This document shows, piece after piece, positions 4,466-19,596 of a stretch of 37,902 nt of DNA. The first letter of the stretch is position 1. Each line of letters begins with the position of its first letter. The translations under genes were made by a program, and so were the position numbers. Under the pieces are notes generated by a model, which was given only the letters and a program-made list of their open reading frames with translations, did no database searches and was not told the origin of the DNA. This stretch comes from a virus: positions 1 through 37,902 of IMG/VR virus record IMGVR_UViG_3300020109_000053; one strand, written 5' to 3'.

Positions 4466-4930
4466 ATGAACTCAAAGAATGTTAGAGAGAAGGAGAATGA
4501 AGTGATGGAGACTGAAAGTTATGGAGAGTTTAAGGAGAAGATGGAGAGGTTAAGAGGGAGTTACGAAGAGAGAGGGGAAACTAAGGTGGCTGGTAAGTGG
4601 AAAGATTTATATGTTAGTAAGAGCGATATTAAGGGGAAGAGAATAAGGAGTTATAAAATGACTCCTCATAGAGAGGCTGTGTTTAGAGTTAAAAAAGAGT
4701 GTAAGAAGAATAAGATTGAAGTTTTTAGTAGTGGTTGGCCTGATTTGTTGTTGGTTAAGAATAATAAAGTTTGGTTTCTTGAGATTAAGACTGGAAAGTT
4801 GGGGAGATTAAGTTATGTTCAGAATAGAGTTAGAGAGGTGCTGGTTGGTGCTGGAATAAATTATGTGGTTTTTAGATCACATAAGGAGAGGGTAGAAGAT
4901 ATTATTGAAGAGATTGGTAGGAGGGAGTAG
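4466..4930 (+). CDS. VRR-NUC domain nuclease (154 aa)
   Basis: This is a small PD-(D/E)XK-fold nuclease of the VRR-NUC type, a family known for cutting branched or structured DNA. The N-terminal 65 residues are highly charged and helical. The nuclease core follows: VFSSGWPDLLLV (the conserved G-x-P-D, about residues 88-99), LEIKTGKLGRLS (the E-x-K motif, about 107-118), and a downstream Gln in SYVQNRV. All the key residues are present. It is the first early gene behind the promoter, set between the inverted-repeat blocks, so a role in processing hairpins or replication intermediates is plausible, but this is inference from position. Confidence 0.88.
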   Translation: MNSKNVREKENEVMETESYGEFKEKMERLRGSYEERGETKVAGKWKDLYVSKSDIKGKRIRSYKMTPHREAVFRVKKECKKNKIEVFSSGWPDLLLVKNNKVWFLEIKTGKLGRLSYVQNRVREVLVGAGINYVVFRSHKERVEDIIEEIGRRE

Positions 4931-4985
4931 AAAGAGTTTTGTTAGGTGTTGAAATGGGCATATGTATAAAAATGGGCATTGGGAT

Positions 4986-5148
4986 TTGTTAATGATTTCA
5001 ATATGTTATGGGGTTTTGTTGGGTTAGGGGGTCGAAAATTATACAATTTGTACGTTTGACATTTTGTCAGTCATCATAACCCATTGATTTTATTGATGAA
5101 TTATTTTTTATTTTATGGCATTCCGATTGCATACATATATGTCATTGT
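4986..5148. repeat. Right inverted-repeat block of the control region
   Basis: Plus-strand 5040-5148 resembles the reverse complement of 3615-3735: ATACAATTTRTA, then CATAAC..ATTGA, then TGGCATT and GATTGCATA in the same order. Together with 3615-3781 it brackets the hairpins and the VRR-NUC gene. Confidence 0.6.
5058..5068. promoter_or_regulatory. GACA-N3-TGTC operator-like site
   Basis: A perfect GACATTTTGTC 11-mer, identical to the site at 3556. It overlaps a TTGACA-like -35 sequence (5057-5062) that lacks a good -10 partner. Confidence 0.5.
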
Positions 5149-5212
5149 AAATCCAATTTAATCCAAATATTGACACTCCAACAGAACATCGGAGAAAGAA
5201 GGGAGGGCTAAG

Positions 5213-5380
5213 ATGAAAGTTAAAGAATTAATAGATGAATTATCGTTGTTTAGTGGAGCAGGTGATGATGAGGTTATAGTTTATGATAGTGATGGAAACT
5301 ATTACAATATATATGGTGCTTGTATAGATGACGCACCTGCGTTAATTTTTGCTATAAAAATCGATAAAGCAGTTGAATAA
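5213..5380 (+). CDS. Small acidic protein (55 aa), related to the insert in the polymerase gene
   Basis: GGGAGGG lies just before the ATG. The pattern is an N-terminal helix MKVKELIDELS, then DDEVIVYD and a Gly turn with following strands. The same pattern (MIRVGKLRKLLRKIPDKAEVHIH) is seen in the 64-aa protein at 17079, so the two probably belong to one small family. The function is unknown. It is the first gene after the control region. Confidence 0.75.
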   Translation: MKVKELIDELSLFSGAGDDEVIVYDSDGNYYNIYGACIDDAPALIFAIKIDKAVE

Positions 5381-5456
5381 ACAATTAATTCTTCTAATAA
5401 TGTCATGAATTGAATGTTCCATAATAGACCAAAATCTAACTACAAGGAGGGCAGAC

Positions 5457-5678
5457 ATGTATACGAGATTTAATTTTAAAACTAAAAAACAGTTAAAGGA
5501 AGCGGTAAAAAGAGGGGAGATTGTAACTATATTTCAACCAGGGGGTATATTTCATCCAACAGAGGACCAATCAAGTTATACGGGGAAGGCTTATGTAGAA
5601 GGTCCTCATTATCCAGAGGCTCATAAGTGGTATGCTTCGGTTGATGTGGTTGAGGGGAAAGTGGTGAGGGTGAGATAG
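5457..5678 (+). CDS. Hypothetical protein (73 aa)
   Basis: AAGGAGGGCAG precedes the ATG. The protein begins MYTRFNFKTKKQLKEAVKRGE: a short strand and a helix, then a Gly/Pro-rich loop (FQPGGIFHPTE) and a C-terminal strand pair (ASVDVVEGKVVRVR). I do not recognise it. It is followed within 50 bases by a terminator, so it closes the first early transcription unit. Confidence 0.78.
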   Translation: MYTRFNFKTKKQLKEAVKRGEIVTIFQPGGIFHPTEDQSSYTGKAYVEGPHYPEAHKWYASVDVVEGKVVRVR

Positions 5679-5726
5679 TTGAATAAACAACTAGTTCTCC
5701 TAAGCTATAAATATCCAAGTTTAATA

Positions 5727-5778
5727 AAACTCCGAGTGAACTCAAGAGTTTATCTTTATGAGTCCTCGGAGTTTTTTT
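5727..5778 (+). terminator. Rho-independent terminator
   Basis: A perfect 10-bp stem AAACTCCGAG / CTCGGAGTTT with a second small hairpin (AACTC-AA-GAGTT) inside its loop, running into seven Ts (5772-5778). It would end or attenuate transcription coming from the early promoter at 4398. Confidence 0.85.
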
Positions 5779-5877
5779 GTAGAAAGTTCCTATGTTGTTA
5801 TGAGAGAGGAGCTAGGTTTAATGCATTGAATTGGTTTAAGAGGGTAAGTAAGGTGGTTGAGAAGGAGGTGAGTTAGA

Positions 5878-6066
5878 ATGAGTAAGGTAAAGTTTACAAT
5901 AGTTATAGACTTAGAGGTTAGTCTATTTAATTTTATGAGAGCATCTACTTATTTTGATGAGGAGAGCTGTAAGAGGTATGCTAAGAAGTACTTAGGAATT
6001 ATAAGGAGCCATGATGTTATAGATTGTGGAGAGGGAGTTATGTTTAGAAAGGAGGAGGAAGAGTGA
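5878..6066 (+). CDS. Hypothetical protein (62 aa)
   Basis: AAGGAGGTGAG precedes the ATG by seven bases. The protein begins MSKVKFTIVIDLEV and ends in a run of acidic residues (FRKEEEE). I do not recognise it. It starts a run of closely packed small genes after the terminator; no good promoter was found between the two. Confidence 0.75.
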   Translation: MSKVKFTIVIDLEVSLFNFMRASTYFDEESCKRYAKKYLGIIRSHDVIDCGEGVMFRKEEEE

Positions 6067-11692: not shown

Positions 11693-12262
11693 ATGTTAAA
11701 ACTAAAACCAGAAATTTTAACCCATCCTAATATACCAAAACCTTTACATGGTATATCACCGAGAACAATTATGGGGGATGTTTGGTGGGATGAAAAAAGA
11801 AAAGAAGTTTATGCTTCGACTGATTATCATTGTATAGCTTGTAGCATACACAAAACTGAAGCAAAGAAGTATCAATGGTTAGAGGCTCACGAATACTGGA
11901 AAATAGATTATAAAACTGGAGTTTGCAAAATAGAATCTATCGAACCACTTTGCCACTACTGCCACAGTTTTATACATTCAGGAAGATTAAAGATGATTAT
12001 GGGCAAAGAAAAAAGCAAGAATGAGGTAGTAGAGATATTGGAACATGGGTTTAAGATATTAGATGATAATAAACTAAAATGTTTCCCGTTTACCTTGCAA
12101 TTAGCAAGGGAGTTGGGGGCTAAAACGTTTAAAGTAAAAGCGTACAGGATTAACATAAATGGTACTATAAAGTGGAAAGATTGGAAATTAATTTTTGATA
12201 GTAAGGAATATTATTCTAACTTTTTTAACATGTCTCAATGGAAAACCTTTTATTTAAAATAA
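11693..12262 (+). CDS. HNH-type endonuclease (189 aa)
   Basis: AAGGAGGATGGA precedes the ATG. The zinc-braced HNH layout is visible: a first C-x2-C (CIAC, about residues 48-51), the His-containing EAHEYW (about 65-70), and the closing CHYCHSFIH (about 88-96). The C-terminal half looks like a helical and DNA-contacting extension. Such stand-alone HNH genes are often mobile (homing) or act in packaging; the cargo-zone location favours the mobile reading. Nothing adjacent looks like an interrupted gene or an intron. Confidence 0.78.
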   Translation: MLKLKPEILTHPNIPKPLHGISPRTIMGDVWWDEKRKEVYASTDYHCIACSIHKTEAKKYQWLEAHEYWKIDYKTGVCKIESIEPLCHYCHSFIHSGRLKMIMGKEKSKNEVVEILEHGFKILDDNKLKCFPFTLQLARELGAKTFKVKAYRININGTIKWKDWKLIFDSKEYYSNFFNMSQWKTFYLK

Positions 12263-14240: not shown

Positions 14241-14283
14241 ATATTTAGTCCTGATTATAAAATGAGAGTTGAGGAAAAATATT

Positions 14284-15558
14284 ATGCCTATGATCGAGAT
14301 AGCTAAAATAATAATTCCCGAAGATAGAGGTAAAAGAAGACATATCGGAAGTATAGATGATCTAGCCTATTCCATAAAAAAATATGGCTTACTTCATCCT
14401 ATAATATTAGATGAAAAAAATATTCTTGTATCTGGTGGGAGGAGGATAGAATGCCACAAGTTGTTGAAGCTTGAAGAAATAGAGTTTAAGCTAAAAGATA
14501 ACTTAAATGAATATGAAAAGAGAGAGATAGAATTAGAAGAAAACATTTGCAGGAAACAGCTTGAATGGCAAGAAGAAGTTAAATATAAGCTTGAGTTAGA
14601 TATTTTAAAAAGGCGAATTTATGGTTATGCGGATAGGTTTAATCCTGAGGGGTGGAGCTTGGAGGATACGGCTCAGGCTATAGGAGAGCCAGCTGTAGTA
14701 ACTAAGAGAGATATACTGCTTGCTAAGGCCCTTGAGGTTATGCCAGAGTTAGAGAAGTGTAAAAATAAATCAGATGCGTTGAAGATGCTAAGGAATGAGA
14801 AAGGAAGGATGATAAGAGAGGAGTTCGTGAGGAAGGCTGAGAAGGAGTTTAAGTTAGAGAGGAGAGAAGAGCTTATAAAGGTGATAGAAGGAGATTGCTT
14901 GGAGGTTATGAAGAATATGAGCTCAGAGAGTTTTGATCTTTGTATTAGTGATCCTCCTTTTGGTGTAGGATTAGATAATATGACCTTTGATTCGAGCTAT
15001 GATAAGTATGATGATAAAGAGGATGAGATGTTTAAGTTGTATCAGGCCTCTATTGTGGAGGTGGCTAGGTTGCTCAGGGTTAATACTCATTTCTATATGT
15101 TCTTTCCTGTTAAGGCTCATACAATAGGGTGGTATTATGAGGAGTTGAGAAAGAGCTTCGACTATGTGGATCCTATACCACTGGTTTGGGTTAAGAATAA
15201 AGGAGGATTTACTGTGGATGCTAGGTTTAGATATCAACCTAGGTATCAGCCTATTTTCTTTTGTTCTAAAGGGAGAAGAGCACTTAAAATGGGGACAGAG
15301 AATGGGAATGTCTTTAGTTATCCAGTCCCTGAGGGGAAGAAGCACCCAGCGGAGGCGTCAGTGGAGTTGTTAGAAGAGTTTATAGAGCAATCGAGTTTGC
15401 CTGGGGAGTTGGTGTTAGATCCTTTTGCCGGGAGTGGGACTACGGGAGTAGCTGCACTTAAGAGACAACGGAGGGCGGTGTTGATAGAGAAGATAAAGGA
15501 TTATGTGACTTTGATTAAGTCGAGGATTTATAAGGAGGGAGGTGAGAGAGATGAGTAA
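14284..15558 (+). CDS. ParB-domain / DNA methyltransferase fusion (424 aa)
   Basis: The N-terminal domain is ParB-like: RHIGSIDDLAYSIKKYG, then LLHPIIL and VSGGRRIECHKLL (about residues 20-65). A helical linker follows. The C-terminal domain is an SAM-dependent DNA methyltransferase with the catalytic motif ISDPPFGV (about 221-228) before the SAM motif DPFAGSGTTG (about 381-390), the beta-type order. DPPF suggests N6-adenine or N4-cytosine methylation. Such fusions are common orphan methyltransferases of phages; no restriction enzyme is beside it. GAGG before the ATG at 14284 favours that start over the TTG at 14269. Confidence 0.88.
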   Translation: MPMIEIAKIIIPEDRGKRRHIGSIDDLAYSIKKYGLLHPIILDEKNILVSGGRRIECHKLLKLEEIEFKLKDNLNEYEKREIELEENICRKQLEWQEEVKYKLELDILKRRIYGYADRFNPEGWSLEDTAQAIGEPAVVTKRDILLAKALEVMPELEKCKNKSDALKMLRNEKGRMIREEFVRKAEKEFKLERREELIKVIEGDCLEVMKNMSSESFDLCISDPPFGVGLDNMTFDSSYDKYDDKEDEMFKLYQASIVEVARLLRVNTHFYMFFPVKAHTIGWYYEELRKSFDYVDPIPLVWVKNKGGFTVDARFRYQPRYQPIFFCSKGRRALKMGTENGNVFSYPVPEGKKHPAEASVELLEEFIEQSSLPGELVLDPFAGSGTTGVAALKRQRRAVLIEKIKDYVTLIKSRIYKEGGERDE

Positions 15559-15700
15559 GAAGTGTACTAACTGTGAGGGGGAGGGGTATTATACTGAGGA
15601 GTGTGATAAGTGTGGGAGTGAGATAGAGGTAGAATGTGAGGAGTGTGGAGGGAGAGGGGAAGTAGAAGAGGAAGAGGAAGAAGAAGAAGGAGAGGAATAA
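15551..15700 (+). CDS. DnaJ-type zinc-finger miniprotein with acidic tail (49 aa)
   Basis: AAGGAGGGAGGTGAGAG precedes the ATG, inside the end of the methyltransferase gene. The protein has CTNCEGEG (residues 5-12), CDKC (18-21) and CEECGGRG (29-36), the repeats of the DnaJ central zinc finger, then a tail in which 11 of 13 residues are Glu. The finger may bind protein or nucleic acid; the tail could mimic DNA or interact with a basic partner. That reading is inference. Confidence 0.75.
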   Translation: MSKKCTNCEGEGYYTEECDKCGSEIEVECEECGGRGEVEEEEEEEEGEE

Positions 15701-15702
15701 CT

Positions 15703-17082
15703 ATGAGTATTAAAGATGTCTGTTTAAGTAAGAGACTAACTTATGTGGAAGGAGAAGGTCCTAAAGGGGCTAAGCTGATGATAGTAGGAGAAGCTCTTGG
15801 GGCTGAGGAAGAGAGACAAAAGAGGCCCTTCGTAGGAGGGGCTGGGATGCTTTTGGATTCGGTGCTTAAACAGGCTGGGGTGGTAAGGGAGGAGGCTTAT
15901 GTTACTAATGTTGTTAAAGTTAAACCTCCTCAGGATAAAATATTGAGACTTAAAGAATTGGGCCTAATGATCTCTGACTTTCTCCCTGCCCTCCGAAATG
16001 AGTTGGAGAAAGTTAGGCCCAATTTAGTTTTGGCCCTCGGAAGTTTGCCGTTAGAGACGCTGTGTAAGGAAAAGGGAATAATGAAATGGAGGGGCTCTAT
16101 TCTAGAGAGCTCAATGATTGAGGGGCTTAAGGTGATTCCTTCGATTCATCCAGCGGCGATACTTAGACAATATAAATGGAGACCCTTATTATCGTTGGAT
16201 GTTAAGAAGGTAAGATCTGAGATGGAGAGTCCTTTGATTAAGGTTCCTGTTAGAAACTTGATGATAGAGCCGAGTTTAATTGAGACTCAGGATATAATTA
16301 GGCATCTTATTAAGGATAAGAGGGAGAAAATAGCCTTCGATATCGAGGTGGATAAAGATGGGAATATGAGTTGTGTGAGCTTTAGTTCCAGTCCTGATTG
16401 GGCTATTTCAATTCCTTTTAGAAATGGATATAAGAGTTATTGGTCTGAAGGGGAGGAGATGCTGGTTTGGGGATGGTTGGAGGAGTTGTTTCAGAGTAAG
16501 AAGCTGTTTGTGGCTCAGAATGCCTTGTTTGATATGATGTGGTTGGTGCCTAGAGTGGGGTATTTTGAGGTGTATATGGATACTATGTGGGCTCATCAGA
16601 CCTGCTATGCGGAGATTCCTAAGGGCTTGGATATGTTGGCTTCGATATATACAAAGGAGCCTTATTACAAGGATGAGAGAAAGTATTGGAAGGATGTGAG
16701 TATTACGAGGCAGCTTTGGAGCTATAATGCGAAGGACTCTGCAGTTACGTTTGAGGTTATGTTAAGGTTGGAGGAGGAGTTGAAGCAACTTAAAATGGAG
16801 GATTTCTTTTTTGGTTATGTTATGAAGTTGCTCCCTGTTTTGCTTAAGTTACAAATGAGGGGGATTAGAGTGGATTTGGAGAGGAGAGAAGAGATTAAGA
16901 AGGAGTTAACTCAAAGGAAAGAGGAATTAGAAAGGAGCTTTAAAGGAGTAAATGTGAGGTCTCCTAAGCAGCTGGCTAAGTTACTTTATGAGGATTTGAA
17001 GTTGCCTAAGCAATATAATAGGAAGACAGGCACTTTGACGACAGGTAAGGAAGCATTGATTAAGTTGAAGAACAAGATATGA
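15703..17082 (+). CDS. polA (N-terminal part): Uracil-DNA glycosylase-like domain fused to DNA polymerase I exonuclease and thumb (459 aa)
   Basis: Domain 1 (about residues 20-175) is a family 4/5 uracil-DNA glycosylase: VGEALGAEEER, RPFVGGAG, VTNVVKVKPP, ALGS and SIHPAAILR. Domain 2 (about 205-355) is the polymerase 3'-5' exonuclease: FDIEV (D213, E215), QNALFDMMW (D277) and YNAKDSAVT (Y341, D345), all metal ligands kept. Domain 3 (356-459) is the beginning of the family A polymerase region, ending at TGKEALIKLKNKI. The polymerase motifs continue in a separate gene at 17263 after an inserted 64-aa gene. The start at 15703 is chosen because the upstream in-frame codons lie inside the zinc-finger gene. 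Confidence 0.88.
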   Translation: MSIKDVCLSKRLTYVEGEGPKGAKLMIVGEALGAEEERQKRPFVGGAGMLLDSVLKQAGVVREEAYVTNVVKVKPPQDKILRLKELGLMISDFLPALRNELEKVRPNLVLALGSLPLETLCKEKGIMKWRGSILESSMIEGLKVIPSIHPAAILRQYKWRPLLSLDVKKVRSEMESPLIKVPVRNLMIEPSLIETQDIIRHLIKDKREKIAFDIEVDKDGNMSCVSFSSSPDWAISIPFRNGYKSYWSEGEEMLVWGWLEELFQSKKLFVAQNALFDMMWLVPRVGYFEVYMDTMWAHQTCYAEIPKGLDMLASIYTKEPYYKDERKYWKDVSITRQLWSYNAKDSAVTFEVMLRLEEELKQLKMEDFFFGYVMKLLPVLLKLQMRGIRVDLERREEIKKELTQRKEELERSFKGVNVRSPKQLAKLLYEDLKLPKQYNRKTGTLTTGKEALIKLKNKI

Positions 17083-17273
17083 TTAGAGTTGGTAAGCTGA
17101 GAAAGTTACTTAGAAAGATCCCAGATAAGGCTGAGGTGCATATACATAAGTTTGGTGAAGAAGGTGGATTAAGTATAGTTACAGAAGATAAATGTTGGTA
17201 TATAAGGGCAGATAGCTTGGAATATGAGGATACTTACATTGAGGGGTTTGAGGAGGGAGCTAATGGGAGTTGA
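17079..17273 (+). CDS. Small protein gene inserted between polymerase halves (64 aa)
   Basis: It starts in an ATGA overlap with the upstream polymerase part and ends inside the start of the downstream part. It reads MIRVGKLRKLLRKIPDKAEV, then VHIHKFGEEGG and CWYIRADSLEY. The pattern resembles the 55-aa protein at 5213, so it is probably a mobile member of a small phage family. There is no sign that it codes for an endonuclease or intein. The insertion cleanly interrupts a polymerase that would otherwise run on from KLKNKI to VEILDNII. Confidence 0.75.
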   Translation: MIRVGKLRKLLRKIPDKAEVHIHKFGEEGGLSIVTEDKCWYIRADSLEYEDTYIEGFEEGANGS

Positions 17274-18153
17274 GATATTAGATAATATAATAGAGCTAAG
17301 ACATATAGAGACTTTGCTATCAAGCTTCGTGGAGGGAGAAGTAGAGGATGGGAGGGTTTATACTTCGTTTAGTTTAGTTGAAACTGGGAGGCTAAGCTCT
17401 CACGAGGACGAGACAGGAAAAGGGACTCATCTTCAGAATATTCCAGAGAGTGTTAGAAAAATGTTTGTGGCGGATGAGGGGATGGTATTAGTAGAAGCAG
17501 ATAAGAAACAAGGGGAGGCGATGATAGTAGCTTGGTTAGCTGGAGAAGAAAAGTTAAAAGAAGCTTTTAAAAGAGGAGAAGACGTTCATGAGTTTAATGC
17601 TAAGAATTTAGGTAAAGATAGAAAGTACGCTAAGTCGAGAACTCATGGGTGGAATTATTTATTAGGGGCGGTTAAAGCTAAAAAAGTAATAACAGAAGAT
17701 GATGAAGCTAGAGAAAAATATTTTAGAACGTATCCTAAGATTAAGTTATGGCAAGATAGGGTTATAAGAGAAGTTTACAAGACCAGAAGACTGATTAATT
17801 CTTTTGGGAGAAGAAGAATGTTCTTTGAGAGAGCTGAGTATGAGAAAGATGGGAGTGTGAAGATAGGAGCTTTAGGTAGAGAAGCTGTTGCATTTTTGGG
17901 GCAGAGTGATTTAGTAGATGACGTTAATAGGAGTATGATCCAGATATTTTATATGGGAGAACCAAGGATTCAGTTATTACATCAAGGGCATGATAGTTTG
18001 TTGTGGCAATTAAGAGAGAATGATTTAGAGTGGGGAGTTAAGTTGATTAAAGAGAATTTCGAACTTCCTTTTATCTGTGGAGGGGACTTAATTAGAATAC
18101 CAGTTGAGGTTAAGAGGGGAAAGTCTTGGGGGGAGATGGAGGAAGTTAAGTGA
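17263..18153 (+). CDS. polA (C-terminal part): DNA polymerase I (family A) palm-fingers half (296 aa)
   Basis: This is the polymerase active-site part: TGRLSS (41-46), LQNIP (57-61), motif A as VEADKKQGEAM (D80, Q83, E85), the O-helix as RKYAKSRTHGWNY (R120, K124, Y132) and motif C as QGHDSLLW (D244). The two catalytic Asp and the fingers Arg and Lys are kept. Several normally conserved residues differ: Lys after the motif A Asp, His at the Phe/Tyr position of the O-helix, and Ser after the motif C Asp. GGAGGGAGC precedes the ATG at 17263. It would pair with the upstream half to form a whole enzyme. Confidence 0.87.
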   Translation: MGVEILDNIIELRHIETLLSSFVEGEVEDGRVYTSFSLVETGRLSSHEDETGKGTHLQNIPESVRKMFVADEGMVLVEADKKQGEAMIVAWLAGEEKLKEAFKRGEDVHEFNAKNLGKDRKYAKSRTHGWNYLLGAVKAKKVITEDDEAREKYFRTYPKIKLWQDRVIREVYKTRRLINSFGRRRMFFERAEYEKDGSVKIGALGREAVAFLGQSDLVDDVNRSMIQIFYMGEPRIQLLHQGHDSLLWQLRENDLEWGVKLIKENFELPFICGGDLIRIPVEVKRGKSWGEMEEVK

Positions 18154-18422
18154 TAGATTGTGGAGAGAAGAGATTATTGGATGCTATAATACTTAATGCG
18201 GTTGAGGACTTGAATATTAAGTTGGAGAATACTAAGGATAGATGTGTAAGGAATAGGTTAAATATCAAGAAGGATAGGGCTAGAACTTGGTTGGAGTCTA
18301 AGAAGAACTCATTTGGTTCGTTTGAGTGGTATTGTGATTTAGTTGACTACGATGCAGAAGCTATAAGAAAGAGGGTGCTATATAGGAGGGCAGATGAAGA
18401 GGGGATTCAGTTGGATAAATAA
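18150..18422 (+). CDS. Hypothetical phage helical protein (90 aa), GTG start
   Basis: GTG at 18150 overlaps the polymerase stop (GTGA). The protein has helices (EKRLLDAIILNAVEDLNIK), then RARTWLESKKNSFGSFEWYC and DYDAEAIRKRVL. The last two parts look like a small phage family in which a Trp/Phe motif precedes a C-terminal helix; the function is unknown. It overlaps the primase-helicase gene by 29 bases. Confidence 0.72.
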   Translation: MIDCGEKRLLDAIILNAVEDLNIKLENTKDRCVRNRLNIKKDRARTWLESKKNSFGSFEWYCDLVDYDAEAIRKRVLYRRADEEGIQLDK

Positions 18423-19596
18423 CTATCTTGAGTATACTAAAGACCAAGAGTCGCCAGAGCTGTTTCATTATTGGAGTGGCTTAGGAGTTATTGCTTCGGT
18501 GCTTGGGAGGAATGTTTTTGTTAGAAAGTCCTACGATCCTAATGCGAAGTTATTTCCTAATATTTATATGATACTTGTGGCTCCTTCGGGTAAGTGTAGA
18601 AAGGGAGGGGCTCTGGGGATGGCTTATAGGATACTAAGGGAAACAGGAGTTAAGGTATATGTAGAGGCGATAACTAAGAGGGCTTTAACTCAGGCTTTGG
18701 CTGATCAGATAATTGTAGTTGAGGGAAGAGCTGAGGGGGAGAGTAAGCTAACTATATGGAGCGAGGAGTTAGAAGTATTTTTAGGGAAAGAGGCTATTTT
18801 AACAGGATTGTTTGCTTTGCTTACTAGACTATATGATGCGCCAGATAAGTGGGAATATTCGACGGCCTCACAAGGGACAGATAATTTGTATAATGTTTGC
18901 TTGAATATCATAGGGGGGACTATACCAGCTTGGTTTTCTGAGTTGCCAACATCAGTTATGAATTCGGGGTTCTTAGCGAGGATAATTATAGTTTGTCAAG
19001 ATAAGACTCCTAGGAGGGAGCCTGGACTAAGAATAGATAAGAAGAAGCTAGATCAGAAGAAGAAGTTAGAAAATGATTTGATTGAGTTCTTAGTTAAATT
19101 AAGAGAAGTTAAGAGGGAATTATATTTTACTCCTGAGGCTATAAACTTTTATGATAGTTGGTACTTAGATAGGGACGAGGTTAAGGATGAGAGGTTTGCT
19201 AGTTTTTATGAACGAGAGCATGATCATTTGATTAAGATAGCCATGCTACTATCGGCTTCATATGGAGATCTGTTTAACTCGGATGTTATAAGTGTGGAGA
19301 GATTAAAAGAGGCGATAATAGTGCTGGATAAAGTTAAAGGTTATATGAGTTTAGCCTATTGTGGGATTGGAGATAGTGTGGGAGCTAAGGGATATGAGAG
19401 GATTTATAGATATATAGTTGAGGAAGGGGGAGAGATAGAACATTCGAGGTTGATGAATAAGAGTTGGTACTGGGTAGGGGATAAGGAAGGGTTTAATAAG
19501 GTTATTGAGTTGCTGGTTGAGACGGGGAAGGTGAGGATTAAGGTTACTAAGAGTGGGAAGAAAATCTATGTGTTGGCTAAGGAGGTTGGAAGGTGA
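18394..19596 (+). CDS. DUF3987-like primase/helicase ATPase (400 aa)
   Basis: This is a probable replicative ATPase in the RecA/AAA-like DUF3987 group. The N-terminal region (SPELFHYWSGLGVIASVLGR) leads to the P-loop VAPSGKCRKGG (about residues 61-71). A Walker B-like TIWSEELEVF follows at about 119-128, then the conserved NIIGGTIPAWF (about 170-180) and FLARIIIVC with Arg (about 192-200). The C-terminal part is a winged-helix-like domain (YRYIVEEGGEIEHSRLMNKS). AGGAGGGCAG precedes the ATG. It sits right after the polymerase, consistent with a replication cassette. Confidence 0.78.
   Translation: MKRGFSWINNYLEYTKDQESPELFHYWSGLGVIASVLGRNVFVRKSYDPNAKLFPNIYMILVAPSGKCRKGGALGMAYRILRETGVKVYVEAITKRALTQALADQIIVVEGRAEGESKLTIWSEELEVFLGKEAILTGLFALLTRLYDAPDKWEYSTASQGTDNLYNVCLNIIGGTIPAWFSELPTSVMNSGFLARIIIVCQDKTPRREPGLRIDKKKLDQKKKLENDLIEFLVKLREVKRELYFTPEAINFYDSWYLDRDEVKDERFASFYEREHDHLIKIAMLLSASYGDLFNSDVISVERLKEAIIVLDKVKGYMSLAYCGIGDSVGAKGYERIYRYIVEEGGEIEHSRLMNKSWYWVGDKEGFNKVIELLVETGKVRIKVTKSGKKIYVLAKEVGR

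Follow-up and report, generated by a model that had tools for sequence, protein, structure and literature searches.

A DNA polymerase gene that stops within its thumb and resumes in the same frame beyond a small open reading frame raises the question of whether it still encodes a working enzyme, now made as two polypeptides, or whether the break reflects decay, splicing or faulty assembly. Such a gene is found in IMG/VR virus record IMGVR_UViG_3300020109_000053, which stems from an uncultured virus and was analysed over its whole length of 37,902 bases (the window). The locus most likely encodes a functional phage UDG-exonuclease-family A polymerase in pieces, whose chains would be made by coupled translation and assemble with each other, and the 64-aa protein encoded between them would be a passenger.

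Architecture of the split locus

That the polymerase is divided between two genes, as a sequence-only reading of this DNA had proposed, was confirmed: the N chain stops at position 17082 and the same frame resumes at ATG 17263. The locus comprises the following features:

14269..15558, + strand: upstream neighbour, a ParB-like/DNA methyltransferase fusion, also found 5' of the unsplit gene in relatives
15703..17082, + strand: N chain, 459 aa (ATG 15703, stop TGA 17080-17082), ending KLKNKI; PHROG 17
N chain residues 17-157, + strand: UDG domain (Pfam PF03167)
N chain residues 194-360, + strand: 3'-5' exonuclease (Pfam PF01612)
N chain residues 395-457, + strand: start of the polymerase domain, as far as the thumb (Pfam PF00476)
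17079..17082, + strand: ATGA, where the start of the 64-aa gene overlaps the N-chain stop (from the sequence)
17079..17273, + strand: 64-aa passenger ORF, in a frame differing from that of the polymerase (from the ORF list)
17083..17262, + strand: insert breaking the polymerase frame, 183 nt or 61 codons including the stop codon
17250..17256, + strand: Shine-Dalgarno-like GAGGAGG, six bases 5' of the C-chain ATG (from the sequence)
17263..18153, + strand: C chain, 296 aa, beginning MGVEILDNII, with the remaining thumb, palm and fingers (ORF and Pfam)
17500..17502, + strand: codon of the motif A catalytic Asp (D600 in read-through numbering; alignment)
17632..17658, + strand: motif B with Lys (17632), His (17644) and Tyr (17656) (alignment)
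17989..17994, + strand: motif C His-Asp codons (alignment)
18394..19596, + strand: downstream neighbour, a DUF3987 primase/helicase-like gene, also 3' in relatives

The domain order UDG, exonuclease, polymerase is that of the phage UDG-exonuclease-PolA family (UDG-PolA family). Between the two chains the polymerase frame contains stops at 17080, 17098, 17170, 17176 and 17203. Because of these five in-frame stops and the 183-nt insert, a single sequencing error cannot account for the break, and a frameshift as its sole cause was rejected. The C chain is less likely to start at the in-frame ATG that lies further 5' (17224), because this codon lacks a Shine-Dalgarno sequence and would add residues absent from the relatives. 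ATGA-type coupling had been suggested for both sides of the small gene; it is present upstream, whereas the downstream junction is an 11-nt overlap between the 64-aa ORF (stop 17271-17273) and the C chain, provided with a Shine-Dalgarno sequence. Termination at the end of the N chain would be coupled to re-initiation on the 64-aa gene through the ATGA, and the Shine-Dalgarno sequence together with the 11-nt overlap would then allow translation of the C chain. Two further ORFs of this region deserve mention. Directly 5' of the polymerase, a 52-aa ORF (15542-15700) has CxxC pairs and a Glu-rich tail (CTNCEGEGYYTEECDKCGS...) and looks zinc-ribbon-like by eye, and the same early region contains an HNH endonuclease-like gene (11693-12262; PHROG 5200, E 4e-20), which may be a mobile nuclease.

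Completeness of the polymerase

The sequence-only reading had also held that the seam is exact, with nothing obviously missing, and this stood up to comparison with profiles and relatives. On the Pfam DNA_pol_A profile (381 positions) the N chain covers positions 8-72 and the C chain 72-381, so that the whole profile is covered jointly, and the joined sequence, when aligned to 17 unsplit relatives, crosses the seam without loss. From the join at ATG 17263 to the next conserved Arg there are 13 residues, compared with 11-16 in the aligned unsplit relatives. All 25 columns that are at least 95% conserved among 123 unsplit genes are kept in the window. The retained residues (profile numbering) include D210, E212, D276, Y342 and D346 of the exonuclease and R512, D550, K604, Y612, H721 and D722 of the polymerase; the C chain retains the motif A Asp, the motif B Lys and Tyr, and the motif C His-Asp. 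The site equivalent to F762 of E. coli Pol I (window 17644-17646; A7 position 648), where Phe, Tyr or Leu is usual, is occupied by His, as in all 47 aligned members of the UDG-PolA family.

The chain ends at the seam leave no room for a whole or split intein, since the N chain extends only three residues past its last aligned residue and the C chain begins with MG directly followed by aligned sequence. Alternatively, the insert could be a small intron removed by splicing, or a stretch bypassed by skipping ribosomes, and a single full-length polymerase would result. This would fit with the shared frame of the N and C parts and the exact length of 61 codons, and cases of group I introns in phage polymerase genes are cited in PMC10580990. 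It is nevertheless very unlikely: no Rfam match reached the gathering cut-offs in the window or the split relatives, the insert region gave just a sub-threshold chance match, its predicted RNA fold was no better than those of shuffled sequences (z +0.51), and the C part has a Shine-Dalgarno sequence and ATG of its own at the seam. Moreover, 183 nt would be short for a group I intron.

A broken gene in a possibly incomplete record might also be a decaying pseudogene, with replication left to another polymerase or that of the host. There is little to recommend this explanation, as the highly conserved residues are all retained in both halves, and the start codon, Shine-Dalgarno sequence and overlaps lie exactly at the seam. 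The record, which may be incomplete, yielded no polymerase of family B or C and no other DNA polymerase. Purifying selection acts on both halves in a pair of split relatives (L214 and L227), with dN/dS of 0.085 and 0.089 for the two halves. The window itself has no close relative (its sister in a reduced tree is the unsplit L255), so that the dN/dS values are confined to this split pair. GC3 drops from 0.475 (N chain) to 0.328 (64-aa gene) and 0.338 (C chain), and this difference between the halves counts against the favoured explanation of a functional enzyme in pieces. Trees calculated from the N or the C part only, which might reveal different donors of the halves, showed no clear conflict. 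A functional split enzyme would have arisen when 183 nt, with an unrelated gene for a 64-aa protein in them, broke into the thumb region of an ancestral single gene without visible loss of polymerase codons, and its N and C chains would fold jointly as one enzyme.

Structure prediction was applied to a proxy, for which the entire region was translated straight through, stops being treated as residues, and modelled as a single chain under the guidance of unsplit homologs; it thus says nothing on the association of two separate chains. AlphaFold2 predicted a complete family A polymerase fold (pLDDT 91, pTM 0.87), in which the artificial linker extends, with low confidence, from between two helices of the thumb. 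Comparison of the model with Pol I structures gave Z scores of 33-37 across the exonuclease and polymerase parts. The model places the break in the thumb, distant in sequence from the catalytic motifs.

The 64-aa open reading frame

The 64-aa ORF is likely coding, although this is not proven. Its codon-usage score is 0.17, while 64-codon windows of real genes in this DNA score between 0.08 and 0.39 and shifted frames have their 95% point at 0.13; the assignment stays at likely because the ORF is outscored by one of the reverse frames at this place (0.23). No convincing homolog was found by tblastn in phages, in Pfam, PHROGs and NCBIfam, by an IMG/VR scan, or by phmmer over all loci. There is a faint resemblance to DUF6225 (E 0.14), and the IMG/VR scan returned two matches spanning 22 residues, at which no matching ORF of at least 30 aa is listed. 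The structure model is poor (pLDDT 60). In agreement with the earlier impression that no intein, intron or homing nuclease is visible, searches of Pfam, PHROGs and NCBIfam gave no match of the ORF to a nuclease, and in this the locus differs from a mobE/seg-type split.

Splits among related polymerases

Relatives were collected by scanning IMG/VR with just the C part and with UDG, polymerase and thumb motifs, supplemented by a few phage records. The resulting set of 172 non-redundant near-complete genes contains 127 unsplit, 42 split and three frameshifted genes, the last of which (L322, L308 and L260) first looked split and were excluded. Hence 42 of 169 relatives are split. The breaks fall just before motif A (site 2) in 32 cases, inside the exonuclease domain (site 1) in seven, at the boundary after the exonuclease domain in two, and in the thumb in one, which is the window. 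Among the loci surveyed, both the thumb break and the 64-aa passenger occur in the window alone. One of the 32 site-2 genes, L195 (1838-5213), is a UDG-PolA polymerase in three pieces, with breaks between the UDG and exonuclease parts and before motif A. The polymerase-motif scan (A5) was built partly from split genes, and its 30 split among 66 genes overstates the frequency; the UDG-motif scan, with 9 of 58, gives a fairer estimate. The thumb-motif scan added no splits apart from frameshifts, and a scan of genome contigs retrieved mainly UDG genes of cellular origin, with L094 as the single phage-like contig. Two alignments, A2 and A4, were too divergent to serve for scanning. At least 19 changes between the split and unsplit states were counted on a FastTree phylogeny, and 15 on a reduced IQ-TREE set, where 12 were forced by well-supported branches; these changes were counted without direction and may include re-fusions.

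A check of related phages for an unsplit gene without the 64-aa insert, as had been advised, did recover uninterrupted genes. They occur in Microcystis phage Mel-JY34, phage ctMlz233, Desulfofustis phage LS06-2018-MD01 and contig vir526, whose recorded host is Methanomicrobiales. In Mel-JY34 and the Desulfofustis phage the gene is flanked by a methyltransferase/ParB-like gene on the 5' side and a DUF3987/primase gene on the 3' side.

The idea that the locus is an isolated oddity did not survive this survey, as split genes recur at several sites of the UDG-PolA family and one such arrangement, in phages MEP401 and MEP402, has been published (PMC10580990). No paper describing recurrent splits in the UDG-PolA family was found in literature whose coverage was mostly without subscription journals. 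The survey also bears on the possibility that the break arose artificially, through faulty assembly or sequencing. The window is a single contig, no second contig with its junction was found in a search that may omit near-identical records, and three relatives that at first seemed split are frameshifted. Against an artefact stand the in-frame stops and the length of the insert, the identical frame on both sides, the coding-like overlaps at both edges, and comparable splits in contigs from separate samples (L227/L230, L228/L229 and L181/L182), and this explanation is therefore highly improbable. With about forty related genes split, mostly in other places and often with unrelated passengers, the break appears to be genuine and one instance of a recurrent pattern.

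Junctions and cargo

Site-2 splits are uniform in build: the N chains mostly terminate with NLQNIPKG and a few acidic residues, and the C chains begin a few residues ahead of LPNIRKLF. An ORF-sized insert is absent from 12 site-2 splits, five of which show 4-nt overlaps; the others carry one to several ORFs, whose products are HNH_3, dUTPase, ThyX, a Lon C-terminal domain, DUF4406, a methyltransferase, an RNase T-like exonuclease or a di-haem peroxidase-like protein, or have no assignment. Among the products encoded at site 1 are DUF7768 and proteins resembling Acb1 and MazG. Among individual loci, L004 has an Acb1-like gene (5129-5512; anti-CBASS, PF23474, E 3e-11) between the exonuclease and polymerase parts, the sister phages L190 (4702-5241) and L235 (5478-6020) have a lone Lon protease C-terminal domain within the split polymerase, and L177 has at this place a 499-aa di-haem peroxidase-like ORF (4480-5979; PF06537, E 3e-36), an odd cargo for a phage. 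The pair L227 and L214 shares about 87% and 90% DNA identity on the two sides of the junction, which in L227 consists of an overlap only and in L214 holds, exactly there, a 146-aa ORF that is HNH-like by eye and has no Pfam match. Shine-Dalgarno-like 5-mers occur at the conserved IPKG codons in 43 of 132 unsplit genes, compared with 12% of control windows. This is suggestive only; the IPKG codons may supply a ready Shine-Dalgarno sequence ahead of motif A, a notion inapplicable to the site of the break in the window.

Tiny lone passengers are found in L179 (62 aa), L221 (72 aa), L237 (58 aa) and L254 (63 aa), and by eye all are unrelated to the 64-aa protein. The latter might be a third subunit that bridges the chains at the thumb, making the polymerase a three-part enzyme. 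Its gene lies between the two chains and overlaps both, the model puts the break in the thumb, and the thumb of T7 polymerase holds the site for thioredoxin, its processivity factor. However, the inserts at the other split sites are mutually unrelated, the twelve site-2 splits mentioned above have none, and no relative of the 64-aa protein was found near any other fetched polymerase. A subunit role is thus unlikely, and the 64-aa protein would rather be a passenger that a two-chain polymerase does not need.

Comparison with known systems

UDG-PolA genes may well be natural sites of fission and cargo docking, broken again and again at a few positions, with halves that keep functioning as separate chains and junctions in which unrelated accessory genes accumulate, and it is reasonably probable, if less so than the reading of the locus as such, that the window represents a working split-thumb polymerase in this sense. 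Assembly of the chains would mean that family A polymerases of phages can function as two polypeptides cut in the thumb. The UDG-PolA family would then provide many natural replicates, with different break sites, with and without inserts, and including a named phage with a host, which bear on the tolerance of polymerases to fission, the origin of genes in pieces, and the way in which junctions become docks. For annotation, searches for full-length polymerases will overlook or misassign part of this family (9/58 in the UDG-motif scan).

The published MEP401 and MEP402, which are Methylophilales phages, likewise encode a family A polymerase as two ORFs with a small ORF between them, and their authors suggested an intron as possible (PMC10580990). 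MEP401, however, is split just before motif A (profile 540/547) and not in the thumb, its 77-aa ORF is unrelated in sequence to the 64-aa ORF, and a UDG domain, present in the window, is undescribed for these phages. Vibrio phage vB_VspS_VS-ABTNL-3 resembles the window in having a UDG-PolA polymerase in two parts (PVS_29 and PVS_27, a split known from the separate annotated genes in its record) with an ORF between them, but its break lies just before motif A and the ORF has 184 aa. This phage has a recorded host and, judging from its record, was isolated and grown, and the split gene is its sole annotated DNA polymerase. Mel-JY34 and LS06-2018-MD01 share domains, domain order and neighbours with the window, but their gene is uninterrupted. 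The PolB of MIJ3 (PMC6892783, on fractured genes with split inteins) is also encoded in two parts with an ORF between them; it has a split intein, whereas the chains in the window lack intein halves.

Precedents for working enzymes in pieces exist in T4-like phages. According to a review (PMC2988022), the split NrdA of Aeromonas phage Aeh1 (nrdA/mobE) is fully functional, and the 43A and 43B proteins of phage 25 co-purify and show polymerase activity. As in the window, an essential enzyme is encoded in two parts with a gene between them, but the enzymes are others, namely a ribonucleotide reductase in Aeh1 and a family B polymerase in phage 25, and their parts are separated by a homing endonuclease gene, whereas the window has a 64-aa protein of unrecognised kind at this place. 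What is new compared with the known phage enzymes encoded by genes in pieces is the site of the break, the recurrence of splits across the family, and a passenger unlike any recognised nuclease.
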